Position numbers and translations under genes: made by a program. Positions 251 through 9,640 of a DNA stretch of 47,708 bases are shown one piece after another. The stretch is from Serpentinimonas sp. (GTDB taxonomy: Bacteria > Pseudomonadota > Gammaproteobacteria > Burkholderiales > Burkholderiaceae_C): positions 1 through 47,708 of the forward strand of contig JALOSG010000003.1 of assembly GCA_025458665.1 (NCBI GenBank). The letters run 5' to 3'. Numbering within the stretch: position 1 is the first letter of the stretch; every line of letters begins with the position of its first letter. The notes below the pieces were generated by a model that was not told where the DNA came from, searched no databases, and worked only from the letters and a program-made list of their open reading frames with translations.

Positions 251-1210
251 TTACTTGATCAGGCCCACTTCCCTGTAGTACCGCTCGGCGCCCGGGTGCA
301 GCGGCACCGGCATGCCCTTGAGCGCGTTTTCGCGCTTGATGGCGCGGGCCGCGTTGTGGGCGGCGTACAGCGTGTCGAGGTTGTCGAACATGGCCTTGGT
401 CATGCGGTACACCACATCTTCCGGCACGCCGCTGTGGGTTACCAGGAAGTTGGGAATGGCGGCGGTGGCCACGTCGGTGGTCTGGCCGCTGTAGGTGTTG
501 GCCGGGATGATGGTGGGCTGGTAGGCGGCATCGCCGATTTTGGCCACCACATCGGCGGGCACCGGCACCACAATGATGTTCACGGCGGTGGCCAGGTCAC
601 GGATGGAAGCCACGCCCAGGCCCGCAGACTGCAGGGTGGCGTCGAGCTGGCGGTTCTTGATCAGTTCCACCGATTCGCCGAAGGGCAGGTACTCCACCTT
701 GGCCAGATCGGTGTAGGCCAGACCGGCGGCCTTGAACACGGCACGGGCGTTCAGTTCGGTACCAGAGCGCGCAGCGCCCACCGAAACGCGCTTGCCTTTC
801 AGGTCGGCCAGTGTCTTGATGCCGGAGTCGGCGTTGGCCACGATCTGGATGACGTTGTTGTAGGTGCCGGCCACACCGCGCAGCTTGTCGAGCTTGGTGT
901 TGAAGCCCGCTTCGGCGTTGCCGTTCCACGCGTCGGACAGGGAGTCGGCCAGGGTCAGGGCCAGTTCGCCACGGCCGGCCTGCAGCAGGTTCAGGTTCTC
1001 GGCGGAAGCGCGGGTCACCTGTGCGGTGGAGCGGACGTTGGGGATGTCCTTGGAGAAGATTTGCGACAGCGCCACACCCAGGGGGTAGTACACGCCGGCC
1101 TGACCACCAGTCAGCACATTGATGAATTGCTGCTGCTGGGCCGCAGCGGTGCCAGCGACGAGGGCTGCGCCGAGGCTCAGGGCCAGGCCCACTTTGTGTA
1201 GCAAACGCAT
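251..1210 (-). CDS. TAXI family TRAP transporter solute-binding subunit
   Basis: MRLLHKVGLALSLGAALVAGTAAAQ signal peptide followed by FINVLTGGQAGVYYPLGVALSQIF and DLKGKRVSVGAARSGTELNARAVFKAAGL, typical of TAXI proteins. Start set at the M before the signal peptide, not at the longer ORF start. Confidence 0.93.
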   Translation of the reverse strand: MRLLHKVGLALSLGAALVAGTAAAQQQQFINVLTGGQAGVYYPLGVALSQIFSKDIPNVRSTAQVTRASAENLNLLQAGRGELALTLADSLSDAWNGNAEAGFNTKLDKLRGVAGTYNNVIQIVANADSGIKTLADLKGKRVSVGAARSGTELNARAVFKAAGLAYTDLAKVEYLPFGESVELIKNRQLDATLQSAGLGVASIRDLATAVNIIVVPVPADVVAKIGDAAYQPTIIPANTYSGQTTDVATAAIPNFLVTHSGVPEDVVYRMTKAMFDNLDTLYAAHNAARAIKRENALKGMPVPLHPGAERYYREVGLIK

Positions 1211-1291: not shown

Positions 1292-2464
1292 TTACGTCGG
1301 ACTGACGAATTCCAGCCGGCGGGCCGACCAGTCCAGCACCGCCGTATGCCGGTGCATGCGCTCGGCGAGGGCGGGGAAGGCTTCGGCAATGACGCCGGCA
1401 GCGAACTGGCCCATGAAGCGGGCCTTGAGTTCGGCCCGGGCGCGCTCCACGCCCAGCGTGTCGTAAGGTACAGAGGCCAGTAGCAGAAAACCGTCGTCGG
1501 GAATGCGGCCCTGCTTCATGTTGTCCTGAATGATCTGGGCCGCGGTGCGTATGGGGTGGGCCAGATCGGGGCTGTAGGGACCCACGATGAGCGCGGTGTT
1601 GGGGGTATGCAGGAAGTCGAAGCCGCGCCCCAGGCAGATGGCCCATTCCCGGTGCTCGGTCACCAGATCGCGCTCCCGGCGTTCGGCCAGGGTGCGCAGG
1701 TGGGCCACGTGGCGCAGGTTGCCCTGCAGCAGGGGGAGCAGGTCGGCGCGCATGGGGCCAGGCATGTCGGGCAGGAGTGCGGCCACCTGTTGCTGCAGTT
1801 CCTCATGGGTGGCGCCGGTGCCCTCGTCGGCCATGTTCAGGCTCTGGCCGTGCGCGCTGTGCAGCAGCAGGGCTTCCTGGTCGGTCTCGAAGCCGCACAC
1901 CAGCGGGTACACCGTGCTGCTGTCCTGCCCGAACAGCTGGCGCACCTGTTCGCGGATGGCCCAGGCGTGCGCCATGCTGGCCTCGCGGTTGTAGTGGAAG
2001 CCGGCGCAGCCACGCAGCGGGTCTCCGCGCGACCAGTGGTAGGTGATGAGCAGCAGCACGCGGCGGCCCTCGCGCACCCGGTCCATCACGTACTGCGTGA
2101 GGATTTCTCCCAGGTGGGGCCAGCCCAGATTGAACATGCCCCCCAGGTTGCGAAACGGCATGAGGATGCCCACCGGCGTTTGCGTGGCCACCGACAGGTT
2201 CACCCGGCCGTCCATGCACTTCAGGGCTGCGACGGCGGTAGGGTGCCGGGCCAGATAGCGTTCTCTGGCCAGCCAGGAGTCCGGGCCCCGGAAGGCCTGC
2301 CCGTGCCGGTCGGCCAGGCGGAACAGCCAGTCTATCCGTGCGGCGATCGGGGCATGGTGCACGAAGGGGTCGGCGCTGTGGGTCGTGCCAGTTGCACCGC
2401 CCGTCGTGGGCTCGCTCTGCAAGGCGGCAGCAGGTTCGGGGGCGTTCATCCGGGGCGTTGGCAA
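1292..2464 (-). CDS. Putative carboxysome-shell-type (CsoSCA-like) carbonic anhydrase domain protein
   Basis: 390 aa ORF with KCMDGRVNLSV (CxDxR) and YHWSRGDPLRGCAGFHYN (H-x9-C), resembling the zinc/active-site arrangement of CsoSCA beta-type carbonic anhydrases from memory. Confidence 0.55.
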   Translation of the reverse strand: MPTPRMNAPEPAAALQSEPTTGGATGTTHSADPFVHHAPIAARIDWLFRLADRHGQAFRGPDSWLARERYLARHPTAVAALKCMDGRVNLSVATQTPVGILMPFRNLGGMFNLGWPHLGEILTQYVMDRVREGRRVLLLITYHWSRGDPLRGCAGFHYNREASMAHAWAIREQVRQLFGQDSSTVYPLVCGFETDQEALLLHSAHGQSLNMADEGTGATHEELQQQVAALLPDMPGPMRADLLPLLQGNLRHVAHLRTLAERRERDLVTEHREWAICLGRGFDFLHTPNTALIVGPYSPDLAHPIRTAAQIIQDNMKQGRIPDDGFLLLASVPYDTLGVERARAELKARFMGQFAAGVIAEAFPALAERMHRHTAVLDWSARRLEFVSPT

Positions 2465-2501
2465 GAAGAGCTGTCAAACCACCCAGTGTAGGCCGCCGGG
2501 T

Positions 2502-3659
2502 TCAGCGCCGCATCAGGGCTTCTACCGCCCGTCCCAGTTCAATCACGGCCATCGCGTAGTAGCTGCTCTGGTTGTAGCGGGTGATGACGTAGAAGTTTTC
2601 CGTCCCCACCACATAGCTGCGGGGGCGGGGGCCGTTCTCCAGTTCCACCAAGGCGAGCTTGCCGCTGTGGTTGGCGTACTCGGGGGGCAGCACGGCGCCC
2701 AGTTCCTGCATCTGCTGGGCCGTGAACGTGGGCAGGATGTCGGGGCCCATGAGCGTGGCCAGCTGCACGCGACCGGCATCGAACGCCACCGGGAAGTGGG
2801 TCTGCATCCCGGCCTGCCAGCCAAAGCCCTGCAGGTACCGCGCCACCGAACCTATGGCGTCGGCGGGGCTGTTGCGCAGGTCGATGTGGCCGTCCGCGTC
2901 GAAGTCGACGCCGAACTTGCCAATGTTGCTGGGCATGAACTGCGGCAGGCCCATGGCGCCGGCAAAACTGCCTAGCCAGGTATCGGGCGCCACACCTTCC
3001 TTGCGCGACAGCGTCAGAAGCGCCTCCAGTTCGCCGCGGAAAAACGCCGCACGGGCCTCCGCTCGGGGGTGCTCCGGTGGGAAGTCAAAGGCCAGCGTCG
3101 TCAGTGCATCGAGCACGCGGAAGCGCCCGGTGTGCTGGCCGTACAGTGTCTCCACTCCGATGATGCCCACGATCAGCCAGGCAGGAACGCCAAATTCGGC
3201 TTCGGCGCGCTGCAATGTGGCCGCATGGTCCTGCCAGAAACGCAGGCCTGCCTGGGTACGTACCGGTTCAATGAAGCGGTCGCGGTAAGCCTCCCAGTTT
3301 CTTGGCACGCCGGTGGGCGTGGGGGCCATGAGCCGCAGTACGGTGGGGTTGCGCTGGGCTTGTCCCACCCAGTTCTGCGCCCAGTCTGCCGGCCAGCCGT
3401 TGCGCTGTGCCATGTCTTGCGCAAAGGCCATGGCGGGGCCGTGCCCGGCATAGCTTCCGGTGGTGGGTGCGCTGGCGGGAGACACCGCGCGTTTGGACGG
3501 GGTGAGGGTTCCGCCGGACTGGGCCTGGACGCTCGCGGGCGCCACACAGAGCAGCCCAGCCAGCGCCAGGGCCGAGCAGAACACTGCCTGCAAGCGCAGC
3601 CACCGGGGGCGGGAAGTTGGAACGATTGGCACGGCGGGGTCCAAGGCAAGTCGGCTCAA
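2502..3659 (-). CDS. mltB: Lytic murein transglycosylase B
   Basis: AWLIVGIIGVETLYGQHTGRFRVLDALTTLAFDFP, GAMGLPQFMPSNIGKFGVDFDADGHIDLRNSPADAIGSVARYL and VITRYNQSSYYAMAVIELGRAV are MltB hallmarks; N-terminal signal-like segment. Confidence 0.93.
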   Translation of the reverse strand: MSRLALDPAVPIVPTSRPRWLRLQAVFCSALALAGLLCVAPASVQAQSGGTLTPSKRAVSPASAPTTGSYAGHGPAMAFAQDMAQRNGWPADWAQNWVGQAQRNPTVLRLMAPTPTGVPRNWEAYRDRFIEPVRTQAGLRFWQDHAATLQRAEAEFGVPAWLIVGIIGVETLYGQHTGRFRVLDALTTLAFDFPPEHPRAEARAAFFRGELEALLTLSRKEGVAPDTWLGSFAGAMGLPQFMPSNIGKFGVDFDADGHIDLRNSPADAIGSVARYLQGFGWQAGMQTHFPVAFDAGRVQLATLMGPDILPTFTAQQMQELGAVLPPEYANHSGKLALVELENGPRPRSYVVGTENFYVITRYNQSSYYAMAVIELGRAVEALMRR

Positions 3660-3747
3660 AAGCGTGGGTCAACAAACATCGCGGCAATCTCCGGGAGCAG
3701 GAATCCGCAGGTGCGAGGGTATCACCGCCGAAGCGGTTCCCCGTGGC

Positions 3748-5826
3748 TCATGAGCCGGCGTGCCGCGCGCGGGCGGCGCCGGGCCAGGGCAGGCGGGTGG
3801 CCATGCGGCGCAACTCGGCCACGCTGGTGGTGCAGTCCGGGTCGTAGCGCTGTGCTTCCAGCGTGTACAGCCAGCGTTGGAGCGTCTGCAGGTCTGGCGG
3901 GCTCAAGGCTTGGGCACCCGCTGCGCTGGACAGCAGCGCCCGCAACTGCCGCGGCGTGGCGTGCTCGGCTACCTCAAAACCAGCCTGGCGCAGCCGGCGG
4001 CGGGCCTGCTCCAGCAGCCGCACCCAGGGGTCTTGCCGCTGCCGGTCCCACAAGGCCCATCCGGCCGAGGCGGCACTCACCAGCGCAATGATGCCCACCA
4101 GCACATAGGCGAGGTCGTTCCAGCTGGGTGACTGAAAGCCCAGGGCCTTGAGCAGATCGAGCTGGCGGCTCTGGGTGTAGTTCAGCACAGTCTGGTTCCA
4201 GCGGTTGTTGACAGCCTCCCAGAACGCACGCACCTGTGCCGACAGCGTGGGGTTGAAGGTGGACATGGCCCTCTCCACCACGTTGGGAACCGGGCGCAGA
4301 CGCTCCAGCGAACCGGTACGCCCTGGGGCGACCATCTGGGTGGGGTCCACGCGCACCCAGCCTTCGCCCTCGAGCCAGACTTCTGCCCAGGCGTGGGCGT
4401 CGCGCTGGCGTACGGCCCAGAAGCCATCGACCGGGTTGCGCTCACCACCCTGGTAGCCAGTCACGACGCGGGCCGGAATGTCCATGGCGCGCATCAGGAT
4501 CACGAAACTCGAAGCAATGTGCTCGCAAAACCCTTCCTTGCGGTCGAACCAGAACTCGTCGGCCGTATGGACTCCGAATACGCCGGGCTCCAGCGTGTAG
4601 CTGTAGCCGCCCGTACGCAGCAGATCCAGCGCGTCGTTCACCAGCGCGGCGGGAGCCAGGCTGGCCCCCGGCCGGTTGCGAAGGTCCTGGGCCAGTTGCA
4701 GGGTGCGCGGGTTGAAGCCGGGCGGCAGGTCGATGTGGTTGCGCAGCGCAATCATGTTCTGGTCCACCCCCGAGCGGTACTGGGGGTAGCTCACCGCCTC
4801 GTAGCGCAGCAGGTCGGTAATGGGCCGCCGGGTAATCCATTGCAGATCCGGGCTCATGAAAGTCTGGTGGCCCGGCACGTCGGGGGCGTCGGCTGTGGCG
4901 TCCAGCACCATGAGCCAGGGGCGGCTGCTGGGTTCCAGGGTGACCCGGTACCTGACTGGTTCGCCCAGGGGCTCGAGCTGCGCGGGCGGATCGAAGGCGC
5001 TGCCCCTGCCGGGAAGCTGCTGTCGCCATTCACGGCCGTCGAAGCGGCTCAGCACCGGCCCACGGAAATACATCTGTTCCTGCGGGGGCACTGAACCCAT
5101 GAACTCCAGCCGGAAGGCAATGCTGTCGTCCAGCGCCAAGCTGGCAATCTCGCCCACCCTCATCTCGCCGGACAGGCCGCTACGCCCGGTGGGTCCGTCG
5201 CTCGGGATGCCCCAAAGTGGTGCCATGCGGGGGAACAGCATGAAGAGCACTACCATGATGGGGGCGCCCAGCAAGGCCATGCCGCCCGCCAGACGCGCGG
5301 CGTGCCACAGAGAAGGCTTGCCCACCGGCATGTGTGCGTTCACCAGCGCTGTGAGCAGCCCCAGCAATGCCAGCAGGATGCCCAGCGCCGTGAGCAGCGA
5401 CTGTGAATGGAAAAAGTGGGTGAGCAGCGTGAAAAAGCTCAAGAAGAAAACCACGTAGGCGTCCCGTCGCGCCCGCAACTCCAGAGTTTTGAGCGCCAGA
5501 AGCACCACAATGAGCGTCACGCCCGCCTCTGGCCCCAAAATAGTGCGGTGCGTGAACCAGGTGGCCCCCAAGGCCAGGGCCAGCAGCCCGAAGCGGAACA
5601 TGCCTGCGGGCAGGGGGCGGCTGCGCCACGCCAGATGGGCCCGCCACGCCAGCACAGCCGCCGTCAGGAGCGTGCACCACACCGGAATGTATTCGGCTTG
5701 AAGCAGGACCACGCCACCCACCACCGCCAGCAGGAACAGCGTGTCCCTCGCTTCCCGCGGCATGCCGCCCATCCCGTTGCCGGGGGCGGCGCGACGCAGT
5801 GGAGGCAGGGTCGGCAGGCTCAACAT
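3748..5826 (-). CDS. Transglutaminase TgpA family protein (DUF3488 + transglutaminase-like)
   Basis: Multiple TM segments followed by KEGFCEHIASSFVILMRAMDIPARVVTGYQGGERNP...RDAHAWAEVWLEGEGWVRVDPT; start at MLSLPTLPPLRRAAPG (5826), overlapping the DUF58 stop. Confidence 0.93.
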   Translation of the reverse strand: MLSLPTLPPLRRAAPGNGMGGMPREARDTLFLLAVVGGVVLLQAEYIPVWCTLLTAAVLAWRAHLAWRSRPLPAGMFRFGLLALALGATWFTHRTILGPEAGVTLIVVLLALKTLELRARRDAYVVFFLSFFTLLTHFFHSQSLLTALGILLALLGLLTALVNAHMPVGKPSLWHAARLAGGMALLGAPIMVVLFMLFPRMAPLWGIPSDGPTGRSGLSGEMRVGEIASLALDDSIAFRLEFMGSVPPQEQMYFRGPVLSRFDGREWRQQLPGRGSAFDPPAQLEPLGEPVRYRVTLEPSSRPWLMVLDATADAPDVPGHQTFMSPDLQWITRRPITDLLRYEAVSYPQYRSGVDQNMIALRNHIDLPPGFNPRTLQLAQDLRNRPGASLAPAALVNDALDLLRTGGYSYTLEPGVFGVHTADEFWFDRKEGFCEHIASSFVILMRAMDIPARVVTGYQGGERNPVDGFWAVRQRDAHAWAEVWLEGEGWVRVDPTQMVAPGRTGSLERLRPVPNVVERAMSTFNPTLSAQVRAFWEAVNNRWNQTVLNYTQSRQLDLLKALGFQSPSWNDLAYVLVGIIALVSAASAGWALWDRQRQDPWVRLLEQARRRLRQAGFEVAEHATPRQLRALLSSAAGAQALSPPDLQTLQRWLYTLEAQRYDPDCTTSVAELRRMATRLPWPGAARARHAGS

Positions 5827-6928
5827 AAGGCCAGCGCCTCCAGGCAGCGCTTCTGGTGCTGGGGGCCGTGGTCGGGGGAGATTTGCAGGCCAGGCAGCCG
5901 CAGGCCGTAGTCCAGACCCGCCTCCTCGGCTTGCAGCACCCAGGCGCACAGGCGGGACAGCTTCGCCTCCGGGCCCAGACCACCGCACAGGCTGGCGTCC
6001 AGCCACAGCTCGGCCGACTGCGGGGAACTGAAGTCGCGGCTGACCCAGGGGCTGCCGGGTTGTGCCCATGACTTGGCGGCCTTTTTCCACACCACCCACT
6101 TCAGGGGATCGCCGCGGCGGTAGGGGCGGATGCCATCGTATTCATCGCTCTGGCGGGTGGCCGCCGGCGCACTGTGTGGCTGTTCTTCGGATTCCTGCGT
6201 CAGCCCCAGCGGCAGCGGCGGAGCGGGGATCTCGGGTGCGGGGTACACCAGCACTTCGCCGGCAGGGCGCCACCACGACCAGACCCGGAACGTCCCCAGG
6301 GGAAAGCGGGTCTCGGTGTTCAGGGCGGGAAGTGCCAGCCGGCCGCGCTCGTGCGTGGGCAGTCCCAGCTGAACCGTCTCCGAGGAGCGGGCATCCACAT
6401 TGGCCCAGACCCAGCCGTCGGGGCCCAGGTGGGCTTCCTGACGACTTTCCGGTGCGGCTTTGTCAGCGGGGCGGTGCACCGGCGGGGGGGCATCGGGGTC
6501 TTCCCGCCAGCGCAATGCCACGGCGTAGCGCGCGCGCTGGCCCGGGTTGTGCAGCACCACGTCCACCCGTGCAGCCTGCCCGGCAAACACCGCATCGCCC
6601 GGGCGCACTTGCAGGCTCAGGCCTCGCAGGTTGTTGTGGCCCACGTGCATGCCTACCACCGCGCTGCCGGCCAGCAGGAAGGTGAGCAGATAACCCAGAT
6701 TCAACTGGTAATTGATGCTGCCTATCAGCAGCACCAGCAGGGTGGCGGCCAGCATGAGGCCAGGCCGGGTGGGCAGTATGTAAAGGTTGCGGTGGGTCAG
6801 GGTGACCGTATCACCGCCGGGCTGGCGCGCCAACCACCAGTGTTGTAGCGCCCGCCAGCCGCGCAGCAGTACATGCCCCGGCCTCGCCGCGGCGGGGATT
6901 CTGTCTGCGGACGGCATCACCCGGGTAC

Positions 6929-6932
<4 letters not shown>
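5820..6932 (-). CDS. DUF58 domain-containing protein
   Basis: DEYDGIRPYRRGDPLKWVVWKKAAKS motif; located between MoxR and TgpA genes with overlapping ends. Confidence 0.92.
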
Positions 6933-7852
<920 letters not shown>

Positions 7853-7881: not shown

Positions 7882-8832
7882 ATGAAGCCCACCGGTTATT
7901 ACAGCCACAGAGCTTGCTGGAAACACGAAATGGGCGCCGGACACCCGGAATGCCCGGAGCGGCTCGATGCCATCGAAGACCGCCTGCTCATCACCGGTGT
8001 GGGCGACGCGCTCGACCGGCGCGACCCCACCCCTGCTTCCCTGTCCGATCTCGAACTGGCGCACGACCGCCTGCATCTGGCGGCGCTGCGGGGCCTGAGC
8101 GAAGAACTGCGCGAGGAAATCGCCGCTGGCGGCCCCAGCCACACCCAGCTCGATCCCGACACCGCCATGAACGTGCACACCTGGGAGGCCGCGCTGCTGT
8201 CGGCCGGTGCGGCCATCGACGCGACCGACGCGGTCATGGCTGGGGAGCTGGAAAATGCCTTCTGCGCCGTTCGTCCGCCGGGCCACCATGCGACGCGCGG
8301 TAAAGCCATGGGCTTCTGTTTCATCAACAACGTGGCGGTGGCGGCCAAGTACGCGCTGGAGCGCCATGGCCTGAAACGCGTGGCCATCATCGACTTTGAT
8401 GTGCACCACGGCAACGGCACCGAAGACATTGTGGCCGGTGACCCGCGCATACTCATGTGCAGCTTCTACCAGCACCCCTTCTACCCGGAGTGGAACCACG
8501 CCAGCGCCGACAACCTGGTGAACCTGCCGGTACCCGCTTACACCAAAGGCATGGACATACGCGAGTTGGTGGACATGTGCTGGCTGCCGCGGCTGAACGC
8601 GCACAAGCCCGAGATGATTTTCATCAGCGCCGGCTTCGATGCCCACCGCGAGGACGACATGGGCCAGCTGGGCCTGGTGGAGCAGGACTACACCTGGATG
8701 ACCCAGCAGATCAAGGCGGTGGCCAACCGCCACGCCAAAGGCCGTGTGGTGAGTTGCCTGGAAGGTGGCTACAACCTGAGCGCGCTGGCACGCAGCGTGG
8801 AAGCACACATCCGCGCCCTGGCCGAGATTTGA
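7882..8832 (+). CDS. Histone deacetylase family protein
   Basis: RPPGHHATRGKAMGFCFINNVAVAAKYAL, VAIIDFDVHHGNGTEDI and ISAGFDAHREDDMG; start at MKPTGYYSHRACWKHEMGAGHPECPERL. Confidence 0.95.
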   Translation: MKPTGYYSHRACWKHEMGAGHPECPERLDAIEDRLLITGVGDALDRRDPTPASLSDLELAHDRLHLAALRGLSEELREEIAAGGPSHTQLDPDTAMNVHTWEAALLSAGAAIDATDAVMAGELENAFCAVRPPGHHATRGKAMGFCFINNVAVAAKYALERHGLKRVAIIDFDVHHGNGTEDIVAGDPRILMCSFYQHPFYPEWNHASADNLVNLPVPAYTKGMDIRELVDMCWLPRLNAHKPEMIFISAGFDAHREDDMGQLGLVEQDYTWMTQQIKAVANRHAKGRVVSCLEGGYNLSALARSVEAHIRALAEI

Positions 8833-8842
8833 GGAGACTGGT

Positions 8843-9640
8843 ATGCAAGATCCCACCCCGCAAGAACCCATACTGCTGCACCAGCGCGACGCGCGCGGTG
8901 TGCACACCCTGACGCTGAACACGCCCAAGGCCTTCAATGCGCTGAGCGAAGCGATGCTGGCCGCCCTGTCGGACAAGCTCACCGAAATTGCCGCCGACCC
9001 CGAGGGCCGGGTGGTGGTGCTGGGCGCGGCCGGCAAGGCCTTTTGCGCCGGCCACAACCTGAAGGAAATGAAGGCCCAGCCCGAAGAGGCCTACTACCGG
9101 CGCCTGTTTGCCCAGTGCTCCCGCATGATGATGCAGATCCAGCAACTGCCCCTGCCCGTGATTGCGCGGGTGCAGGGACTGGCCACGGCGGCAGGCTGTC
9201 AGCTGGTGGCGCAGTGCGATCTGGCGGTGGCAGTGCAGGAGGCCAAGTTCGGTGTGAATGGTATCGATGTGGGCCTGTTCTGCGCCACGCCCAGCGTGCC
9301 GCTGGTGCGCAATGTGCCCACCAAAACCGCCATGGAAATGCTCCTAACGGGCGAGTTCATCAGTGCCGAGACCGCCCAGCAGCGCGGGCTGGTGAACCGC
9401 GTGGTGTCTGCCGAGGCCCTGGACGCCGAGGTGGAAAAACTGGTGGCCGCCATTCTGGCCAAGCCCCGTGTGGCCATTGCCATGGGCAAGGCCGTGTTCT
9501 ACCAGCACCGCGAGACCGGGATTGAAGCGGCCTACCAGTTGGCGGGCCAGACCATGGCCTGCAACATGGCCCACGAAGTGGCGCAGGAAGGCGTGCAGGC
9601 TTTCATTGAGAAGCGGCCACCCGCATGGCGGGCCGCCTGA
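8843..9640 (+). CDS. Enoyl-CoA hydratase/isomerase family protein
   Basis: VVVLGAAGKAFCAGHNLKEM and LPLPVIARVQGLATAAGCQLVAQCDLAVAVQEAKFGVNGIDVGL crotonase motifs. Confidence 0.95.
   Translation: MQDPTPQEPILLHQRDARGVHTLTLNTPKAFNALSEAMLAALSDKLTEIAADPEGRVVVLGAAGKAFCAGHNLKEMKAQPEEAYYRRLFAQCSRMMMQIQQLPLPVIARVQGLATAAGCQLVAQCDLAVAVQEAKFGVNGIDVGLFCATPSVPLVRNVPTKTAMEMLLTGEFISAETAQQRGLVNRVVSAEALDAEVEKLVAAILAKPRVAIAMGKAVFYQHRETGIEAAYQLAGQTMACNMAHEVAQEGVQAFIEKRPPAWRAA

Follow-up and report, generated by a model that had tools for sequence, protein, structure and literature searches.

The csoSCA2 gene raises the question of what a carbonic anhydrase (CA) of the CsoSCA class does outside a carboxysome locus. 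The window, i.e., the whole stretch of 47,708 nucleotides analyzed, contains this gene and shows neither a carboxysome nor a RuBisCO gene, in agreement with the preliminary description of this DNA, which had reported the lack of carboxysome shell and RuBisCO genes. CsoSCA2 was described in 2022 as a second, compact variant with a 40-residue N-terminal domain (PMC9164163), and PMC11086599 has described a 'non-cso' CsoSCA cluster whose neighbors are hydrogenase, NADH or permease genes. According to both papers, the carboxysomal CsoSCA may be the derived form, and PMC9164163 asks why such divergent CAs persist outside carboxysomes. CsoSCA2 is widespread, and the family bears on the origin of the carboxysomal CA. 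The neighborhood and genome-content data presented here offer two testable answers to this question: that inorganic carbon is supplied to RuBisCO without a carboxysome, and that an ordinary housekeeping CA has been replaced in close relatives of the window's organism.

Gene, fold and active site

The csoSCA2 of the window (Table 1) is a genuine gene with more than 40 homologues. Its reading frame is open across 390 codons from a TTG start, with an alternative in-frame ATG at codon 6, and homologues with 57-78% identity to the window protein are found in records of Burkholderiales, Gammaproteobacteria, Magnetococcales, Desulfobulbus/Pelovirga and Myxococcales. By sample, the homologues comprise 39 loci in the genome contig set and, besides the window's genome, 15 of the 250 genomes sampled from the order (E<1e-90; one at 44% identity) and seven genomes of the family sample. 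The phylum sample of 399 genomes has 12, one of which is the window's own. The csoSCA2 records L045, L047, L054/L061, L034, L036 and L037 contain an in-frame stop or an apparent frameshift, for which gene decay, an error in sequencing or an artefact of the search may be responsible.

Table 1. Positions in the window of csoSCA2, its conserved motifs and the adjoining genes.
Feature	Position	Strand	Evidence
TAXI-type TRAP transporter solute-binding protein, downstream neighbor; ATG at 1210, signal-peptide-like start	251..1210	(-)	TIGR02122, 368 bits; PF16868, 317 bits
csoSCA2, compact CsoSCA-class beta-carbonic anhydrase, 390 aa	1292..2464	(-)	40-member alignment, AlphaFold, Foldseek
H271-x-E-W-x-x-C277-x-G-R-G-F-D-F-L-H286-x-x-N289, conserved motif in the C-terminal 'defunct' half	1598..1654	(-)	40-member alignment; region aligns with the CsoSCA C-terminal domain
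H143-WSRGDPLRG-C153-AGF, predicted second and third zinc ligands, H-x9-C	1997..2038	(-)	Invariant in 40/40; aligns with H256/C267 of CsoSCA L056
C83-M-D85-G-R87, predicted first zinc ligand and Asp-Arg dyad	2204..2218	(-)	Invariant in 40/40; aligns with C187/D189/R191 of CsoSCA L056
mltB, lytic murein transglycosylase B, upstream neighbor	2502..3659	(-)	TIGR02282, 310 bits, over cut-off

In the AlphaFold model of the window protein (mean pLDDT 87.8, pTM 0.84), residues 1-29 are predicted to be disordered and are followed by helices at residues 33-36, 40-59 and 61-73 and by the first strand at residue 76. The five best Foldseek matches in the PDB are all CsoSCA (2fgy, 8thm and 9g4t, with E values of 3e-15 to 6e-14), and the matches to CsoSCA of Halothiobacillus and Cyanobium are full length, with 380-399 aligned columns and TM scores of 0.64-0.70. 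Ordinary beta-CAs follow far behind, at 4e-5 and weaker, and CsoSCA, the family with which the preliminary description had compared this protein, is clearly the best match. Profile-profile alignment by hhalign of the family with five CsoSCA sequences from the same order as the window covers both domains with a probability of 97% and an E value of 8.5e-11, the aligned region beginning at residue 78 of the window protein and residue 182 of CsoSCA. When the PDB was searched with the single sequence, only weak matches were obtained and a profile search was needed to find the CsoSCA chains, which the family HMM matched at 3e-7 to 1.6e-6; apart from them, nothing in the PDB was matched at better than E 0.5. 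The sole Pfam family found is PF20686 (CsoSCA_cat), for which the window protein scores 19.8 bits against a cut-off of 21.5 and to which 33 of 40 family members match (E<=0.01), while the score for TIGR02701, the carboxysomal equivalog, is 23.6 bits, far under the cut-off of 241. Fold search, profile-profile alignment and PF20686 together support placing the window protein within the CsoSCA class, in a branch that stands alone and is not carboxysomal.

Two other families were excluded. DabA (PF10070), which is part of the DAB vectorial CA and a frequent gene neighbor of the csoSCA2 family, is much larger, and the window protein shows neither a PF10070 match nor a profile-profile match to it. 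What the two would have in common is, in principle, a Cys/Asp/His/Cys zinc site. Canonical beta-CAs (PF00484) share the C-x-D-x-R motif and a distant fold similarity with the window protein, but they use HxxC, and the window protein has no H-x2-C, no PF00484 match and no profile match to the beta-CA of its own genome.

Residues 83-87 of the window protein are CMDGR and residues 143-156 are HWSRGDPLRGCAGF. The C-x-D-x-R and H-x9-C motifs, both of which had been noticed in the preliminary description, are borne out by the alignment, in which the C, D, R, H and C residues are invariant in all 40 homologues and the spacing is fixed (59 residues between C83 and H143 and nine between H143 and C153). 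The hhalign register places all five residues on those of CsoSCA L056 (Table 1), where H256 and C267 form H-x10-C, the spacing of the carboxysomal proteins. In all stop-to-stop frames of at least 150 aa in the window there is a single occurrence of the combined motif C.D.R...H.{9}C, and a chance motif is ruled out by the conservation in 40 of 40 homologues together with the CsoSCA fold match.

PMC9164163 places cbbLS near a CsoSCA2 gene in two Sulfuricella species. The same arrangement is found at the Sulfuricella sp. T08 locus (L039), where cbbL spans 2385-3824 and the csoSCA2 homologue occupies 7995-9053, and the protein of this homologue is ~60% identical to the window protein (59-61% for the records of Sulfuricella sp. 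T08 and S. denitrificans); the window gene is therefore a CsoSCA2. Like CsoSCA2 and the non-cso cluster, the window protein possesses a short helical N-terminal segment (~40 residues rather than ~144), all CsoSCA active-site residues (C, D, R, H and C) and an active domain plus a defunct pseudo-repeat domain, both of which align with CsoSCA, and its gene lies outside cso operons. The free-living branch of CsoSCA suggested in the preliminary description was therefore right in kind, as judged by fold, profile and PF20686, but this branch had already been published, under the name CsoSCA2 (PMC9164163) and, in PMC11086599, as the non-cso cluster. With the window gene this published group gains a member, to which neighbor and co-occurrence data are added here, and most of the interest lies in its csoSCA2 relatives rather than in the window copy.

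The window protein is not a carboxysomal CsoSCA. It shares with the carboxysomal proteins (2FGY, 8THM and 9G4T) the fold, the zinc-site residues and the pseudo-repeat with a single active site; however, it is ~20% identical to them, contains H-x9-C instead of H-x10-C, is encoded outside a cso operon and lacks the long N-terminal domain with the hook motif and the RuBisCO-binding peptide. It is plausible that the role of non-carboxysomal CsoSCA differs from that of the carboxysomal one.

Predicted function and the C-terminal half

Computation establishes the gene, its fold class, the conserved site, the genome content and the gene neighbors; from these features we infer zinc binding, CA activity, a cytosolic place and a physiological role, and we propose that the csoSCA2 product is a cytosolic, zinc-dependent beta-type CA of the CsoSCA2 subfamily whose most likely reaction is the conversion of cytoplasmic CO2 to bicarbonate and back (probability about 0.8). 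The short N-terminal helical segment would precede a catalytic domain in which zinc would be held by C83, H143 and C153 and the D85-R87 dyad would keep the zinc site open, and a C-terminal pseudo-repeat domain would carry no active site. CsoSCA2 may keep cytoplasmic CO2 and bicarbonate in balance. In this organism, which is capable of autotrophy, the pool delivered by the DabBA-type pump would then be at hand both as CO2, for a form I RuBisCO that has no carboxysome, and as bicarbonate, for ordinary carboxylases; in organisms that lack such a RuBisCO, CsoSCA2 would serve the ordinary carboxylases. The literature yielded no assayed CsoSCA2 protein, and the group has apparently never been assayed.

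The C-x-D-x-R set is absent from the C-terminal half of the window protein. In the 40-member alignment, 34 of 150 positions are invariant in this 'defunct' half versus 37 of 121 in the catalytic half, and within its conserved motif H271, E273, W274, R280, D283, H286 and N289 are invariant and C277 is found in 39 of 40 members. The strong conservation of this half is unaccounted for by a cytosolic zinc CA. With a conservation close to that of the catalytic half, it seems to do more than act as a scaffold, and the protein might be a regulator or a CO2/bicarbonate sensor that retains the catalytic residues and is no longer a CA, but we regard this explanation as far-fetched, for the invariance of the five active-site residues in all 40 homologues argues for catalysis. 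The CsoSCA sequences aligned with this half contain no residues equivalent to C277, R280 and H286.

Genome content and co-occurrence with RuBisCO and other CAs

The window's genome is 81% complete and consists of 290 contigs. At this completeness no match to a BMC-domain protein was found in it, while elsewhere it has a gene for the large subunit of a form I-type RuBisCO, accompanied by CbbQ, a CbbO-like VWA protein and a divergent LysR gene, as well as a dabBA-type (DabA/NuoL-type) pair with a LysR gene and one PF00484 beta-CA, so that CsoSCA2 is not its only CA. The preliminary description had placed the gene outside any carboxysome locus, which is accurate for this genome as assembled but not for the family as a whole. 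BMC-domain proteins occur in three of the 33 csoSCA2-bearing genomes, and at locus L088 of G043, one of the three, csoSCA2 has both shell genes and a true CsoSCA within ~6 kb. The distance between csoSCA2 and a true carboxysomal CsoSCA is ~5-6 kb in two related genomes (L088, 9424-17016; L029, 7359-16415).

In the order sample outside the window's own family, RuBisCO is found in all 15 csoSCA2-bearing genomes versus 99 of the 235 others (Fisher, 4.5e-6, a value that ignores kinship among related, non-independent genomes from five families). This co-occurrence speaks for the proposed cytosolic CA, as do the RuBisCO and DabA/NuoL-type genes of the window's own genome and the inorganic-carbon transport candidates near csoSCA2 in relatives. 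Within the own family, RuBisCO is found in four of the seven other csoSCA2-bearing genomes, and G352, G335 (99% complete) and G435 (73% complete) show no match to RuBisCO, PF00484 beta-CA or DabA. A strict link of csoSCA2 to RuBisCO and CO2 fixation is excluded by these three genomes, in which CsoSCA2 is the only beta-class CA found. G352 is apparently Tepidicella xavieri, as its csoSCA2 matches that of the T. xavieri locus L005.

These genomes bear on the possibility that CsoSCA2 serves chiefly in housekeeping bicarbonate supply, with replacement of a Can-type beta-CA in some relatives and with autotrophy and inorganic-carbon uptake being incidental. G352 and G335 speak for such a role, and so does the lack of PF00484 in 12 of the 33 csoSCA2-bearing genomes, although this fraction compares with 25% in the order sample and a simple either/or of csoSCA2 and PF00484 beta-CA is unsupported. 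On the other hand, the 15 of 15 co-occurrence with RuBisCO, the inorganic-carbon transport candidates near csoSCA2 in 29 of 64 loci, the PF00484 CA in the window's own genome and the restriction of the CA search in relatives to the beta class weigh against it. We consider a chiefly housekeeping role a serious contender with somewhat less than even odds.

Gene neighbors of csoSCA2

In the window, which stems from a Tepidicella-like bacterium of the Comamonadaceae, csoSCA2 is between mltB and the TAXI-TRAP gene, a setting that does not appear in the accessible parts of PMC9164163 and PMC11086599. mltB is upstream of csoSCA2 in nine loci of the window clade (one change on the tree), while the TAXI gene is downstream on the same strand in five loci, the window and L002-L005 (two changes), with a DctM-type permease gene next in L002-L005; the window ends before the permease position. 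A simple consensus scan found neither promoter nor terminator between mltB, csoSCA2 and the TAXI gene, which hints that the three might share one transcript. That CsoSCA2 and TAXI-TRAP form an operon in this clade, e.g., for carboxylate or bicarbonate import coupled to the CA, would agree with this arrangement but seems improbable, since L006, L092, L093 and L094 retain mltB-csoSCA2 without the TAXI gene and the titles and abstracts of the literature give no clear link between TAXI and bicarbonate. Upstream of mltB, at 3748-7852 (-), are genes for a TgpA-type transglutaminase (PF11992/PF01841), an ORF without a Pfam match and a MoxR-type AAA ATPase, an ordinary cluster that is apparently retained in L002-L004 and L006.

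No DabA, SulP, Chr or Hyf-like neighbors are found within 9 kb of csoSCA2 in the window clade, and that the window copy adjoins no inorganic-carbon gene counts against the cytosolic CA proposed above. Across the family, the 29 loci with at least one candidate inorganic-carbon transport gene within 9 kb are spread over several separate branches: DabA with NuoL-type proteins in 11 of the 64 loci, SulP in 13, chromate-transporter-type proteins (Chr) in five and hydrogenase-4-like (Hyf-like) proteins in eight. These neighbors require seven (DAB), seven (SulP), four (Chr) and six (Hyf-like) changes on a quick tree with many weak branches and therefore were gained or lost more than once.

The repeated neighborhood may indicate that CsoSCA2 is dedicated to inorganic-carbon systems of the membrane, as a partner that binds them and converts on the spot what they import, and DabA would be expected within 9 kb by chance in only ~0.6% of genomes (a rough estimate for a 3-Mb genome). 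However, the genes are often on opposite strands rather than in a single operon, the type of neighbor varies and is missing from the window clade, DAB is a vectorial CA in its own right according to PMC13144422, and closeness of genes is not binding. Such a partnership is unlikely in our view, and a free cytosolic CA is the reading we retain.

The hydrogenase-4-like set comprises NuoB-, NuoCD-, NuoH- and NuoL-type proteins and is a candidate partner complex for CO2 uptake. Because none of the seven large-subunit sequences checked contains the CxxC motif (NiFe cysteines), the complex is probably not a hydrogenase. A more speculative and quite unlikely proposal gives CsoSCA2 a working part in the uptake of inorganic carbon at the membrane: in Sulfuricella and relatives it would be the CA partner of a proton-pumping hydrogenase-4-like complex that has lost its NiFe ligands, the counterpart in proteobacteria of the NDH-1MS CO2-uptake complex of cyanobacteria, and the window copy would represent a branch turned free cytosolic CA. 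The hydrogenase-4-like set is beside csoSCA2 at 9089-16358 of L039 and also in L012, L023, L034, L083, L086, L087 and L089.
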